60,922 nt of DNA from Gemmatimonadales bacterium (GTDB lineage Bacteria; Gemmatimonadota; Glassbacteria; GWA2-58-10), in NCBI GenBank assembly GCA_024278175.1, contig JAJRTS010000038.1, forward strand, positions 1 through 60,922. Reading direction: 5' to 3'. Position numbers and translations under genes: made by a program. The notes beneath the pieces were generated by a model. That model had not been told where the DNA came from and did not search any database. It saw only the letters and a program-made list of their open reading frames with translations. Below, piece after piece: positions 3,632 through 60,922 of this stretch (position 1 is its first letter; every line of letters begins with the position of its first letter).

Positions 3632-6600
3632 TGAGCAAACGACCCACATATAACTCTCTGCTCGCGGCGCTGCTGCTGGCTGTTTCGGCCCTTTCGGCCG
3701 CGTCCCCCGCCACCACCGGCAAGCAGAAGACTCCGTACCCGGGGCCGATGCTGGCCGCGTTCCGCACCCGGATCACCACCGGTAACCGGATCGAGTTCAA
3801 CATGGCCAACAACGGTTATCTGGCCGTGGACCCCAACCGCGGCAGTATCACCCCCGGCGGGTTCTGGCCCAGCGGCAGCGAGGACGCATACATTTTCGCG
3901 GCCGGGCTGCACGTGATGGGCATTATCGACTCGGACGGCGACGGGATCGCCAGCGATATAGTGGAAACCCAGCTCGTGTTCGACAGCGAGTGGCGCGAGG
4001 GCCGTCCCACCGACGACCCTGACGACCCGGCCAGCAGGCTCTACTTCTCCACCAGCCAGACCGATCTGGAAGAGTGGCCCGCGGAATTCATGGTGACTGA
4101 CTCCAACCAGGCCAGCCCCACTTATGGCCAGTTGGTGCCCGATGTACGCAGCGAACAGGACGTGGTGGGCATCTACACGGATATCGGCGGACCGGTCAAC
4201 ACTGCGGCCGGTGCGCTGAGACTGGGTGTCGAGGTCCGTCAGCACGTGATGTTCTACAGCCTGAGCGAGATGCAGGACATCATGTTTGTCTCCTGGGACA
4301 TCTATAACGCCAGCCGCTACGTGACAGATCCCGACGTGGTGCCCGGCTACGACATCCACGATGCCTACGTCAATATCAAGACCGATTTCGACATCGGCGC
4401 CAACGCGCTCGACGACCGCGCGGCGGTCAGCCCGGTGCGCAACATGTCGATCGCTTTCGACAGCGATTTCAGCGAGGCGGGTTTCAGCGGCCCGCCGGCG
4501 TTCATGGGGATCAGCTTTCTGGACGCGCCCACCGAGCACGACGGGATAGACAACCAAGACCCGCTGTTCCCCCAGGGCAACGGCCTGAGCGATGAAACGT
4601 TCGGCGAGGTACAGGCCGCCGGGATCAAGGACCCGCGCACCGGGATGTATTTCGAGTTCGACCCCGAGGTCATGGATGAAAGCGCCGAGAGGATGAGCCT
4701 GTTCACGGTCAACACCAACGGTGGTGAGCGCCCCGACCCGTTGGACGACGCCGAGGCGTACCGGATTCTCAAGGGAGACCCCGGCGAGGTGCTCACTCCC
4801 CGCTGGGACCCCTATGCCGATCTGATTATCGCCGATGTTGTCGGCGACCTGCGCCAGAACATCGTCAGCGGGCCGTTTGAGATGCCCAGCCTGGCTGGCT
4901 CCGGAGCTAAACATGTGGTGGCCGCGATCTATTTCGCCCGCCCCGCCAGCGCCAGCGTGGATATCAACAACCTCACCATCAACGGCGAGCTGCGGCCGCT
5001 GATCGACCTCTGGGCCGTGGCCCGCGAAGTCCATCGCAGCGGCTTTATCGTGCCCTCGCCCCCGCTCGCCCCCGCCATGCGGCTGATCCCCGGGGACAAG
5101 CAGGTGATTATCACCTGGAACGACCTGCCTGTCGAGGCCGCCGATCCCTACGCGCTCACCGCTGCCGCGGCCCAGCACGAGCCGGTTGAGCAGTTCCCGG
5201 CTCTCAGATACCGTGCGCGGGATTTCGAGGGCTTCCGGGTCTACCGCTCGCTGACCGGCAATCCGGACGATGCGCGCCTGATAGCCCAGTACGATCTGGA
5301 CAACCAGTACCAGAGCTACAAAATCACCCGCGCAGTGGCCACCAGCCAGGGCCGTCAGGACGTTGTGGAGGAAATCCCGTTGGGCACCAACACCGGGCTG
5401 GCCTTCAGCTTCACCGACCGCGGCGAGGATATCGGCGGGCTGGTCAACGGTGTGCCGATTTTCTACACCGTGGCCGCCTACGATTTCAATCCCACGCTGA
5501 TCGGCGACGAGTCCCTGGAAAGCTCGCTCAATTTCCGCGGCCAGAACGCCGACGGCAAGTTTTACCAACTGGTCATCCCCCGCAGCAACAGCACTTCGAT
5601 AGTAGCCGGTAGCGGCAACTGGCGGCAGATCGATTACGCGGGCAACACGGTCGAGAGTTCCCCGGTCCCGGCCTGGCGGCAGATCGCCACGGTGGAAGCG
5701 AACGCCTCTCGCGGTTACGTGGTGCAGTTCACCGACCCGATCCCGCCGGTAAGCGGTGCGTTTTCCGCCTCGCTGAGCCAAGTGGTGGTTATCGATCCGG
5801 AGAACGTCCCGAAGCTGGGCGGGTACCTGGTTGTCGATTCCACACTCCACACGGACAAGGACACGCGCAACCACAAGCATTTCGTCCATTTCGAGGACCC
5901 CCAGGGCAATGTCAGTACCAGCGGCACTGTCACGATTCCCTGGCACGACGTAGAGGGACTCTATCCCGGCAACGAGGTGGTTGACCAGCGGGTTCCGTTC
6001 AATTTCAGCGGCCCGCTGGTCGATGGCGGTCCGCTGTTCAACGGCTCCGCCTATTTCCGCAAGGGTGGGCTGGAGATGGCCAAGGTGGCCCCGCTTAAGG
6101 TCACGCTGGCGGGTGCGAGCGAGAATACATCATTTATTCGCGGAGAGGCCGGCAGTTACGAAGAAGTCGGCCTGCTGGTTTTCGAACAGTTCGAGGTCCA
6201 TCAGCCCTTTATCGCTCTTCAGCTCAACGGGCTTGTCTCGCGCAGACTCAACGTGGCGGGCCAGTTCGCTCCCGGCTCGATCTCGATCACCTGGCTGGCC
6301 GACGGGGCGGTGGATTTGTGGGACGTGGCCAACAACGTTCCCGTACGCTTCAACGAGCGGGTGGCCGACGGCTGGGGGTTCCTGCCGCTGGACGACTACC
6401 CCTACGAGCAGATCTACGAGGACCAGATTCTGACCCCCGACGACCTGCCCGTCGCGCGCCTGGTAAAGCGGGCCGTGTTTATCGACGACCCGCTCAATCC
6501 GGGCAGCGAGATGATGAGCCTCTACGTGCGCGGAGTGGAGCTGCAACTGCGCAAGATCATCCAAAGACCGGCCGCCGGTGATATCTGGACGCTCGACATG

Positions 6601-40844: not shown

Positions 40845-42533
40845 ATGAGCGGCTTGGGAGTACTGTTTTATCCCAAATACCGCACGGCGATGGCAACCTG
40901 GCGCAAAACCTCGCCGGGCAAGGCGCTGCCGCTGGCGGTGGTCACCCTGTTGTTCTGGGGGCTGACTTACAGCCTGTTCCACCGGATGCTGGTCTATTTC
41001 CGTTCCACGGAGGATATCGGCACGCTGCTGACTGTCAAGCTGGTGTCGATGACGCTGATCAGTTTCCTGCTGATCCTGGTTGTCAGCAACCTGATTTGCG
41101 CGTTCAACACATTCTTTTTCAGCGAGGACCTTTACCTGCTCGTTTCCAGCCCGGTCTCGCTGCACCGGATATTCCTGGCGCGCTTTATCGAGACGATGGT
41201 GCATGCGAGCTGGATGGTGCTGCTGATGGCCGTGCCGATATTCGCGGCCCTGGGCCGGGTATTCGATGCCGGCTGGGAGTTCTATGCGGGCTCCATCCTG
41301 ACAGTAATACCATTGGCGATGATCCCCACGGCCGCCGGGGTGATTATCGCCATGCTGCTGGTCAACGTGTTTGTCGCGCGCCGCACGCGGGACATACTTT
41401 CTTTTCTTTCGATCGCCGTACTGGGCGGGATGCTGATCGCACTGCGCCTGCTCAACCCGGAAAAAGCGCTGATCCGTCACGAGATGGACAGCGTGGTCTC
41501 TTTTTTTAGCCTGCTCAGAAGCCCGGACAGTCCGCTTTCTCCGCATTTCTGGGCCGGCCGGGTGCTGCTTGACCTGTTGGGCCTGGGCAAGAGCGACGGC
41601 CTGTTTTTCGCTCTCCTGCTGGCCTCCGCCGCCCTTGGGCTTATGAGCATCGGCTACTACGTTACCCTGCTCTGCTACCGTCGCGGTTTCAGCCGCGCCC
41701 AGGAGGCAGTCACCGGCAGGATCATCGGCCGCGGCTGGATCGACCGGCTGCTCTCGATCTACCTTCGCCCCCTGCACGCTCAGGCGCGAGAGCTGGTGAT
41801 CAAGGACCTCAAAGCGTTCGCCCGCGACAAGAGCCAGTGGAGCCAGTTGTTCCTGCTCGGCGGAATGATAGCGGTTTACCTCTATAACTTTTCCGTTTTG
41901 CCGTTGGAACACAGCCCCGTTCCCCGCTACTTCCTGCAGGTGGTGCTCAGTTTCCTCAATCTGGGGCTGGCCGGTTTCGTGATCGCCAGTATCGCCACCC
42001 GTTTCGTATTTCCGGGAGTCAGCCTTGAGGGAAACAGTTTCTGGCTGCTCAAAAGCGCTCCCGTTTCGCTGACGCGGTTTCTCTGGGCCAAAATGTTCGT
42101 ATTGACTGTCCCACTTGTGGCGCTGGGCCAGTTCCTGGTATTTGTCAGCAGCCGGATCCTCGGTTCGGACAACGGGATCACCGCCGTGGCCTGTGTCGTA
42201 GTGCTTACCCTCACTCTGGCGATTGTTGCTCTGGGGACCGGCATGGGCGCGATTTATCCCCGTTTCGAGGTGGAAAACCCCGCCCAGATCAGTACCGGAA
42301 TCGGCGGTGTGCTGTATATGATCGCATCGCTGGCGATAATCGGCACGACTATCGGCCTGCTGGTGCGACCGGTCCATCACCTGCTGATGGCCTCAATCCA
42401 TCAGACCGCCCTGACCGCCGGCCAGTGGGGCGAAGTGATCGGTTTCTGCACGCTGATCGCCGGTTTTCACGCCCTGGTGCTCAAACTGAGCATGGATTGT
42501 GGTGTGCGGGCCCTGAGCAGACTGGAAATTTGA
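40845..42533 (+). CDS. ABC-2-type exporter permease
   Basis: This 562-residue integral membrane protein has about twelve hydrophobic segments in two sets of six. It fits the putative ABC exporter permease family (long, internally duplicated), with FFSEDLYLLVSSPVSLHRIFLARF and, in the second half, GNSFWLLKSAPVSLTRFLWAKM. The two similar SSPVSL/SAPVSL cores show the duplication. No ATPase partner gene lies beside it; the 4-bp gap to the esterase gene suggests they are co-expressed. The substrate is unknown. Confidence 0.72.
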   Translation: MSGLGVLFYPKYRTAMATWRKTSPGKALPLAVVTLLFWGLTYSLFHRMLVYFRSTEDIGTLLTVKLVSMTLISFLLILVVSNLICAFNTFFFSEDLYLLVSSPVSLHRIFLARFIETMVHASWMVLLMAVPIFAALGRVFDAGWEFYAGSILTVIPLAMIPTAAGVIIAMLLVNVFVARRTRDILSFLSIAVLGGMLIALRLLNPEKALIRHEMDSVVSFFSLLRSPDSPLSPHFWAGRVLLDLLGLGKSDGLFFALLLASAALGLMSIGYYVTLLCYRRGFSRAQEAVTGRIIGRGWIDRLLSIYLRPLHAQARELVIKDLKAFARDKSQWSQLFLLGGMIAVYLYNFSVLPLEHSPVPRYFLQVVLSFLNLGLAGFVIASIATRFVFPGVSLEGNSFWLLKSAPVSLTRFLWAKMFVLTVPLVALGQFLVFVSSRILGSDNGITAVACVVVLTLTLAIVALGTGMGAIYPRFEVENPAQISTGIGGVLYMIASLAIIGTTIGLLVRPVHHLLMASIHQTALTAGQWGEVIGFCTLIAGFHALVLKLSMDCGVRALSRLEI

Positions 42534-42574
42534 ACTTCCCCCGGTCGCCTGCTTCATGGGATTACGGGCAACAC

Positions 42575-42655
42575 CCGGGGCGGGCGGCGCCTGTGCGGCC
42601 GCACAGGCGCGCCTGCGGCGCGTGCGGACTTCCGTCCGCGCGCCGCCCGCCCCGG
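42575..42655. repeat. 81-nt perfect cloverleaf inverted-repeat element
   Basis: A 16-bp outer stem (42575-42590 with 42640-42655, CCGGGGCGGGCGGCGC and its exact complement) encloses three hairpins with almost no spacer. They are 42591-42606 (CTGTGCGG/CCGCACAG), 42608-42622 (CGCGCC/TGC/GGCGCG) and 42624-42639 (GCGGAC/TTCC/GTCCGC). Every stem is perfect. It lies between the permease gene and the UroD-like gene, with no coding capacity. It could be an extruding cruciform, a strong bidirectional terminator or a mobile repeat. No flanking target duplication was found. Confidence 0.85.
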
Positions 42656-42715
42656 CGGACTGTCCTCCATAACGAAGACTAAAACTAGATTTACCGGCCC
42701 AAAAAGGAGACACGA

Positions 42716-43870
42716 ATGACAGAGATGCAGAATATGCTGGCCGTGCTTGGCGGTGAGCGCCCGGAGCGGTTTCCCTATACGCCGATGGGCCACTGGAACC
42801 GTCGCGCCGTGCGCAAGCTGCTGCCGGACAACTGCTACCACGACCATCTCTACTGCCTGCCGGAGAGCAGTTGGGGCTCCGATGAGCGTACCGATGCCAG
42901 CCGGGAGGCGGCTGTCAACTATGCCCGCTTCATGGGTGTGAGCACACTGGGCGTGGGCAAGGGCGGGGCCATGCCGTTCGGCCATGGTGGTCCGGCGGAG
43001 ATAATCGGTGAGCTGGAAAGCCGGAGTGAGGATGGGTGCGAGATCTACCGCTTCGAGGGTGGCGGCAGGCGGCTGGTGCGTTATGATCCCTATTCGGTGC
43101 AATACGGGTATACGTTCCCGATCCGTACGCACGATGATCTCGATGCGCTCGAATTGCCCGATCCCCACGACCCCTCGCGCTGGGTCGATATCGAGGGCGA
43201 TGTGGCCGCGTTCGAGGTGGCGGGTGTGATGCCGGCGGCCAAGATCATGGGCTTTTTCAGCGGTGTGCATAACAATTTTTACGATTTCGAGCCGCTGCTG
43301 CTTAACTTTTTCGACAACCCGGAATTTGTTCATCGCCTGACTGACACTCTGGCCGCTTGGAGTCTGGCCTGCGTAGAGGAGGTCCTGGCGCACGGAGTTA
43401 AGCTGATCGAGGTCTGCGATGATCTGGGCACGCCGGAGGGGATGCTGATCAGCCCGGAGCAGTTCGATACGTTCTACCTTCCCCACTACCGCAGACTGTG
43501 CGAACTCTGCCACAGCCGCGGTGCCTGGGTGCATATGCACAGCCACGGCAACATCCTGCCGATCATGTCGAGGCTGGTCGAGGCGGGTGTGGATATTATC
43601 AACCCGTTCGACCCCCACGAGGTGCCCGCGCCGGGCGAGCTGGTGGAGCGCTACGGCGACAAGGTGGTGCTCTGCGGGTTTATTCCCAGCGACTACTACC
43701 TTCTCGAGCATGACCAGGATATCGAGGCGCTGTTCGCCCGTGCGGCCGCTTTGGGCCGGGGCTGCGGGCGCGGGTTCGTGATGATGGAACACGGGTTCCC
43801 CGAGGATCTCAGCGCTCGGCGGTTCCGGCTGATCCTGGAGCTGGTGGAAAAGTACCGCCGCCTGGACTGA
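42716..43870 (+). CDS. UroD-family protein (methyltransferase/decarboxylase superfamily)
   Basis: The 384-residue protein has the UroD/MtaA-type TIM-barrel pattern: MLAVLGGERPERFPYTPMGHWNRR at the start, EVLAHGVKLIEVCDDLGTPEGMLISPEQFDTFYLPHYRRL, WVHMHSHGNILPIMSRLVEAGVDIINPF and GFIPSDYYLL. It lacks the RQAGR motif at the N-terminus that marks true uroporphyrinogen decarboxylase (hemE). It is better called a UroD-like protein, as in cobalamin-dependent methyltransferase systems. The ATG at 42716 has AAGGAG at a good distance. Confidence 0.78.
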   Translation: MTEMQNMLAVLGGERPERFPYTPMGHWNRRAVRKLLPDNCYHDHLYCLPESSWGSDERTDASREAAVNYARFMGVSTLGVGKGGAMPFGHGGPAEIIGELESRSEDGCEIYRFEGGGRRLVRYDPYSVQYGYTFPIRTHDDLDALELPDPHDPSRWVDIEGDVAAFEVAGVMPAAKIMGFFSGVHNNFYDFEPLLLNFFDNPEFVHRLTDTLAAWSLACVEEVLAHGVKLIEVCDDLGTPEGMLISPEQFDTFYLPHYRRLCELCHSRGAWVHMHSHGNILPIMSRLVEAGVDIINPFDPHEVPAPGELVERYGDKVVLCGFIPSDYYLLEHDQDIEALFARAAALGRGCGRGFVMMEHGFPEDLSARRFRLILELVEKYRRLD

Positions 43871-44736: not shown

Positions 44737-44764
44737 GTAGGGGCGACGCATGCGTCGCCCCTAC
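44737..44764. terminator. 28-bp perfect palindrome between convergent genes
   Basis: GTAGGGGCGACGCA is followed immediately by its exact complement. It sits between the ends of the deacetylase gene and the M6 protease gene, which face each other, so it is a good bidirectional terminator. The sequence matches the GTAGGGGCGA...TCGCCCCTAC arms inside family B elements but lacks their ends. Confidence 0.7.
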
Positions 44765-60781: not shown

Positions 60782-60922
60782 TAGAGCGTTTCTCGAAAGA
60801 AATGTCCGCTTGATTTTCCTTCGAAGAGCCGTTCCTTGCCTTGTAGGGGCGAACCTTGTGTTCGCCCGTAAAGAATATAGCAGGTGCACAGATTGACGGG
60901 CGAACACAAGGTTCGCCCCTAC
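60782..60922 (+). mobile_element. Family B MITE-like element, copy 3, cut by the window end
   Basis: TA at 60782-60783 is followed by GAGCGTTTCTCGAAA (from 60784), then the family sequence CCGCTTGATT, and arms GGGGCGAACC...GTTCGCCC and GGGCGAACAC...GTTCGCCCC. At least 139 bp are present; the right end lies outside the window. It starts six bases after the aminotransferase stop codon. Confidence 0.78.

Follow-up and report, generated by a model that had tools for sequence, protein, structure and literature searches.

REP elements are reported to protect the 3′ ends of mRNAs from exonucleases and to separate the expression of one gene from that of the next. In Escherichia coli, REP and BIME sequences are bound by nucleoid, topoisomerase or repair proteins. 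A second process that bears on palindromes is replication template switching. Between inverted repeats it reportedly homogenizes the arms and inverts the spacer (PMC8604942), and it is said to create and maintain hairpins (PMC8794818). Our survey of open-licence papers found no account of palindromic repeats in Glassbacteria, nor of a cloverleaf repeat or MITE such as the one described below.

Structure and setting of the window element

The window is the whole stretch of DNA that was analysed, 60,922 nucleotides in length. The original prediction placed in a short intergenic gap an 81-nt cloverleaf, whose outer stem closes three adjacent hairpins, and this structure is real. It occupies exactly positions 42575–42655, is 88% G+C and leaves bases unpaired only in the three hairpin loops. 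The 35 pairs are divided by DNA parameters into an outer stem of 16 and hairpins of 6, 7 and 6, and by RNA parameters into an outer stem of 14 and hairpins of 8, 5 and 8. The two energy models partition the shared GCGC bases at the junction differently. The predicted outer stem of 16 bp stands in the DNA fold; the predicted hairpins of 8, 6 and 6 bp mix the DNA and RNA partitions of these junction bases. None of 200 dinucleotide shuffles folds as well as the element (z −5.05 for DNA, −6.59 for RNA).

The element as a whole, to which no strand is assigned, is delimited by the DNA and RNA folds and by a covariance model match at 42572–42658 (E 3.1e-8 with model R1 and 1.7e-4 with model R2, both introduced below). 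Its parts are given here on the forward strand. The 5′ arm of the outer stem spans 42575–42588 (14 nt in the RNA partition, 16 nt in the DNA partition) and the 3′ arm 42642–42655; both rest on the folds and on covariation in the family, where the stem is helix 1. Hairpin 1 (42589–42608) consists of GCCTGTGC, the loop GGCC and GCACAGGC, and its sequence is conserved family-wide. Hairpin 2 (42609–42621; GCGCC, loop TGC, GGCGC) is taken from the RNA fold and is variable, differing from the sister-species ortholog by one C-G to T-A double change. Hairpin 3 (42622–42641) consists of GTGCGGAC, the loop TTCC and GTCCGCGC, and its GCGC-type arm is again conserved throughout the family. Hairpins 1 and 3 are each supported by the RNA fold, the alignment and covariation.

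The surrounding gap is 182 nt long and lies between co-directional genes, both on the forward strand and both identified by Pfam matches. The upstream gene (40845–42533) encodes a permease-type protein (PF16949, ABC_tran_2), and the downstream gene (42716–43870) a URO-D family protein (PF01208). The element begins 41 nt after the ABC_tran_2 stop and ends 60 nt before the URO-D start. No T run follows it on the 3′ side, where the sequence is CGGACTGTCCTCC. A scan of the window with Rfam returned no family at gathering score, and three loci with copies, scanned permissively, yielded sub-threshold matches only. URO-D family genes, presumably MtaA-like, adjoin three separate cloverleaf sites: window 42716–43870 and L038 1320–2333, both by Pfam, and G000:C2 near 16200 (the site matching G1_C22), by reading of the sequence by eye. 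They lie upstream of the element at some sites and downstream at others. Elsewhere in the window, at 44737–44764 and 60843–60922, palindromes of the form GTAGGGGCGA...TCGCCCCTAC belong to another dispersed palindrome family.

Distribution, age and constraint of the family

Six genomes of the family, G000 to G005, were compared. G000 is the window's own genome and G001 that of the sister species; G002 is Candidatus Glassbacteria bacterium RIFCSPLOWO2_12_FULL_58_11, and G005 represents a third genus. A DNA search of G000 (4.18 Mb, 113 contigs) located further places with the same three-hairpin fold and other hairpin sequences. Model R1, a covariance model built from five of these own-genome copies, finds the fold at eight places there. 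Model R2, built from 34 copies, finds 8, 12, 25, 0, 0 and 13 places in G000, G001, G002, G003, G004 and G005, a total of 58 copies of the same fold in four of the six genomes (E up to 0.1, with matches on both strands counted once). In a scan of 298 genomes of the phylum only these four match and the other 294 lack a copy, under stricter filters at which weak matches may be lost. A scan of species genomes, whose listing may omit the window's own and near genomes, places the three-hairpin fold with its CGCCGCC partner only in MFIX01 records (G002) among the 80 matches examined of 95. The cloverleaf is a dispersed intergenic element specific to one Glassbacteria family.

Two G001 copies lie about 2 kb apart in inverted orientation (L087 2433–2521, forward strand, and 4485–4587, reverse strand), separated by ordinary chromosomal DNA for which G000 has a homolog. 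A palindrome on contig C50 (L040 2261–2331; G000:C50:70760–70830) has a similar three-hairpin fold, is matched by neither model and was left out of the family counts. It lies within a reading frame that we take to be BatD-like; the G001 counterpart, which lacks the palindrome, has a linker of much the same length.

Covariation was assessed in alignment A2, which was built without reference to structure and holds 34 of the 58 copies, omitting the 13 from G005 and 11 found later. In the outer stem and hairpins 1 and 3, 95.5% of 875 cells are paired. Double-change cells number 51, against 15.5 ± 2.8 after shuffling (0 of 500 shuffles as high) and 4–11 with partners slid. The copies covary as a structured RNA family does, beyond both shuffled and slid controls. 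Hairpin 2 is too variable in length for the alignment, and a stem is present there in nearly all copies; its per-copy shuffle test reaches significance in some and not in others, owing to the shortness and high G+C of the segment. Recognizable motifs recur in hairpin 1 (GCCTGnGC/GCnCAGGC) and hairpin 3 (GCGCnCAT/ATGCGC), and these give the cloverleaf a direction. Read in the sense of transcription, mismatches are divided 10:8 between G·U and A·C, in an uninformative strand test for which orientation was assigned by hand in 19 of the 34 copies and several mismatches are probably alignment slips. An additional outer helix in the G002 copies is unsupported: its length is 4.08 with flanks of the same copy and 4.06 with swapped flanks.

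The age of the element can be read from its surroundings. With the elements masked, seven of the eight own copies have flanks that can be matched to those of G001 copies, and the long flank matches show 77–86% nucleotide identity between the two species. At these seven orthologous sites the stems are identical at 345 of 349 positions (98.9%), with 4 of 174 pairs altered on one side and none on both. Hairpin 2 is identical at 107 of 128 positions, the loops at 41 of 70 columns (59%) and the 20-nt flanks at 178 of 313 (57%, against about 45% for unrelated flanks). Stem identity between non-orthologous G000 and G001 copies is 84.6%. Gene conversion among copies was rejected as a source of stem conservation, since every ortholog pair has a stem variant of its own. 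Frozen stems with diverged loops and flanks imply that the origin is not recent and that the stems are under constraint. The perfection of the stems had been attributed in the original prediction to recent origin or to active maintenance. The first does not hold, as seven of the eight own copies are older than the split from the sister species; the 98.9% stem identity and the strong covariation bear out the second.

Recent transposition within the window's genus is likewise rejected for seven of the eight copies. The exception is C106, which lies in a region of low GC3. Its flanks are unmatched in G001, its element shares 95% identity with a G001 copy, and it may have inserted later. Loss seems to occur as well: only a 14-nt arm-like remnant is left at the G000 site matching G1_C22, and the gap matching G1_C62 is unalignable and holds no remnant. 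No clean empty sites were found. At two of the seven orthologous sites (L038, C32/G1_C44; L021, C74/G1_C27) synteny ends at the element and a different gene lies beyond it in each species. The neighbour shared at C74/G1_C27 is the gene start downstream, not the stop upstream.

Placed in a common flank frame, five of the seven orthologous elements point in the same direction and two are inverted (C47/G1_C10 and C7/G1_C81). The inverted pairs have their interior in the order hairpin 3-2-1 against 1-2-3, and homology seems to extend over the feet of the outer arms and the bases next to them on the outside. The simplest reading is a flip of the interior within the arms that enclose it; the alternative would be that two elements inserted independently at one position. 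Since a perfect hairpin stem has one and the same sequence on either strand, no stem is altered by a flip. Every G005 copy with flank has a single orientation relative to the MITE ends described below, which implies that flipping is slow. The earlier suggestion of a recombinase site gains from the flipped interiors in two of seven pairs, but template switching explains the flips without a recombinase.

Carriage by a probable miniature transposable element

Copies in G005 form the core of a 203–215 bp unit that is bounded by terminal inverted repeats (TIRs) and set in unrelated DNA. One end of the unit carries TTAGCCCGGATTATTCATGAA and the other a near complement of TTAGCCCGGATTATTCATGAA. Both TIRs are present within 4 mismatches in the stretch examined around 6 of the 13 G005 copies. 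Six G005 units were inspected for a CTAA-like 4-bp target duplication: it is exactly CTAA in two, has one mismatch in three and is absent in one. Both TIRs together occur at none of 44 copies in G000, G001 and G002, and the flanks of copies in these genomes hold no repeated word beyond a few copies. By its anatomy, then, the putative MITE is confined to G005. We lean to the view that elsewhere the cloverleaf has outlived its MITE, rather than that a MITE captured the cloverleaf.

Sequences related to the TIR occur in other settings. Persicobacter plasmids have a 20-nt end in common with it, beside which the cognate transposase was not identified. Viral contig scans for the TIR gave no matches in one and 15 in another, for which the immediate context was viewed. 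Within the window, the segment 52263–52400 starts with TTAGCCCGGATTATTCACGAA, one base off the TIR of the G005 unit, and resembles a TIR-bounded repeat of about 250 bp without a cloverleaf elsewhere in the same genome (L011, about 2288–2540).

Candidate functions and known systems

The relation of the element to genes was analysed, with its flanks, for 57 of the 58 copies (G002:C75 was left out), using simple GC-frame gene calls. Co-directional gaps hold 24 copies, convergent gaps 8 and divergent gaps 8; 2 lie inside a called frame, and for 15 one side is missing at a contig end. Of the 24 copies in co-directional gaps, 23 lie closer to the stop codon upstream (p 3e-6; 19 of 20 when orthologs are counted once), and the median distance from that stop is 46 nt. 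The element points in the same direction as the gene in 14 cases and in the opposite direction in 10. The genes adjoining the own copies tested are diverse (nine proteins).

Our tentative choice of explanation, which may well prove wrong, is a MITE-borne, REP-like structural element that would have been co-opted at gene 3′ ends as a hairpin knot indifferent to orientation and would act as RNA. Its job probably depends only on the folded shape. The following course is proposed. (i) The cloverleaf would have spread within a MITE, as its core or its cargo, and a TIR-recognizing transposase would have mobilized that MITE in trans. (ii) In the window's genus the TIRs and mobility would then have been lost, and the folded knot kept because it was useful. 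(iii) The most likely step in its action would be transcription just past the stop codon, yielding a stable roadblock at the 3′ end. (iv) This roadblock would keep 3′ to 5′ exonucleases off the upstream mRNA and uncouple its expression from that of the next gene. (v) Replication template switching would help to keep the arms perfect and would cause the flips. All arms are perfect inverted repeats, both strands therefore have identical stems, and the knot is the same whichever way the element points; the 14:10 orientation and the inversions at two of seven sites fit such a strand-symmetric structure. Several observations count against a 3′ knot made of RNA. No mRNA 3′ end is expected at the 8 of 57 copies in divergent gaps, and 2 lie within a called frame. 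At two orthologous sites one neighbouring gene has been replaced and the element retained. The bias towards stop codons could merely reflect selection against insertions near promoters, the 10:8 balance of G·U and A·C gives no sign of selection on an RNA strand, and the stem sequence is conserved beyond pairing, which a pure roadblock does not need.

The divergent copies, the replaced neighbours and the conservation of stem sequence fit a site acting at the level of DNA equally well or better. Here the duplex or cruciform would be bound by a nucleoid, topoisomerase or repair protein, and the 8–25 copies per genome would serve as chromosome-organizing sites. Such a role, unlikely on balance though quite conceivable, would account for a constraint that is independent of orientation and neighbouring genes and extends to divergent gaps, for stems conserved in sequence and not just in pairing, and for the lack of an RNA-strand signal in the 10:8 ratio. 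The strong stop-side bias in 23 of 24 co-directional gaps speaks against it, and we know of no partner protein.

Mutation bias alone, in which template switching homogenizes the arms and flips the spacer and the element has no function, is improbable. Homogenized arms and inverted spacers (PMC8604942) and the creation and maintenance of hairpins (PMC8794818) are reported outcomes of template switching, and the inverted interiors at two of seven sites agree with them. Template switching alone lets the arms drift together, yet no pair of 174 has changed on both sides and 4 have on one; 29 of 70 loop columns differ while the stems stay, so this reading is disfavoured. We give as little credence to a bidirectional terminator without a U tract. 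Very stable hairpins just past stop codons and convergent gaps among the sites would suit one, and a strong terminator had been proposed for the window copy. That copy is followed by no T run, several copies lie between divergent genes, and three hairpins in a closed stem exceed the needs of an intrinsic terminator.

It is very improbable that the cloverleaf is a REP-like selfish repeat moved by a Y1/RAYT transposase. A REP-type repeat handled by a dedicated nuclease had also been suggested for this locus, together with a search for a REP-associated tyrosine transposase, and the first half of the suggestion stands: the element is a dispersed palindromic repeat that prefers the 3′ side of genes, in 23 of 24 co-directional gaps. 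Of the Y1_Tnp genes, which are present in four of the six family genomes, two (from G001 and G002) have the NCBIfam RAYT model as their best match, at scores under its cut-off. The nuclease half is not borne out. None of 13 Y1 (RAYT-like) loci has a cloverleaf copy in the flanks retrieved, and the presence of Y1 genes does not follow that of the cloverleaf: 13 copies but no Y1 match are found in G005 (a genome 88% complete), and Y1 matches but no copy in G004. The GT(A/G)G head of REP elements is absent, with 4 of 114 element ends having it within 12 nt against 4 in the control. Y1 enzymes are not known to make target duplications or TIR-bounded units; the TIRs and possible 4-bp duplication of the G005 unit largely refute this route of mobilization. 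The cloverleaf resembles REP in its distribution but lacks two tested REP/RAYT features. A chance palindrome or assembly artefact, the verdict foreseen for a single isolated copy, is rejected as having next to no probability: it has very high G+C and nothing else in its favour, against 0 of 200 shuffles and copies on many contigs in four genomes, one of them publicly named.

A broader formulation, speculative but worth entertaining, embraces both the mRNA 3′-end knot and the chromosome site. The cloverleaf would be a strand-symmetric element that holds almost all of its information in perfect stems, identical on either strand, so that its interior could flip between the outer arms with the fold intact. 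It would have been carried by a MITE through Glassbacteria and then frozen as a host function, either of these two, that is read by shape and duplex sequence, independently of orientation and neighbours. Perfect multi-hairpin repeats are easily written off as REP debris or recent insertions. Orthologous frozen stems, free loops and inverted interiors separate selection on structure from mutation bias, and cloverleaf orthologs offer a natural test of how mobile palindromes turn into host parts.

Like REP/BIME sequences and their RAYTs (PMC2817692, PMC8266576), the cloverleaf copies are dispersed intergenic palindromes lying mostly 3′ of genes, with compensatory changes; palindromicity is also kept at orthologous positions in both (PMC2817692). 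The REP of that description is a single short imperfect hairpin with more than 100 copies, whereas the cloverleaf is a closed three-hairpin structure of about 81–110 nt with 8–25 copies per genome. It also departs from REP/BIME as portrayed there in having no GT(A/G)G head or adjoining RAYT, in forming a TIR-bounded unit in one genus and in its inverted interiors at two orthologous sites. With the bacterial MITEs that have RNA-like folds (Correia/NEMIS, ERIC, RUP and CIR, as outlined in PMC2229807) it has in common a non-autonomous, non-coding and dispersed character, and the G005 unit is alike in its length of about 210 bp, its TIRs and its possible 4-bp target duplication. It differs from them in that the TIRs are missing around the G000, G001 and G002 copies, the conserved part is internal rather than terminal, and the core is very G+C-rich. 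The mobile GC clusters of yeast mitochondrial DNA (PMC4478555) are likewise short, mobile, GC-rich intergenic palindromes but are organellar. Hairpins maintained by template switching (PMC8604942, PMC8794818) have homogenized arms and spacer inversion in common with the cloverleaf; in the cloverleaf the sequence of the arms has, in addition, stayed fixed from one species to the other.
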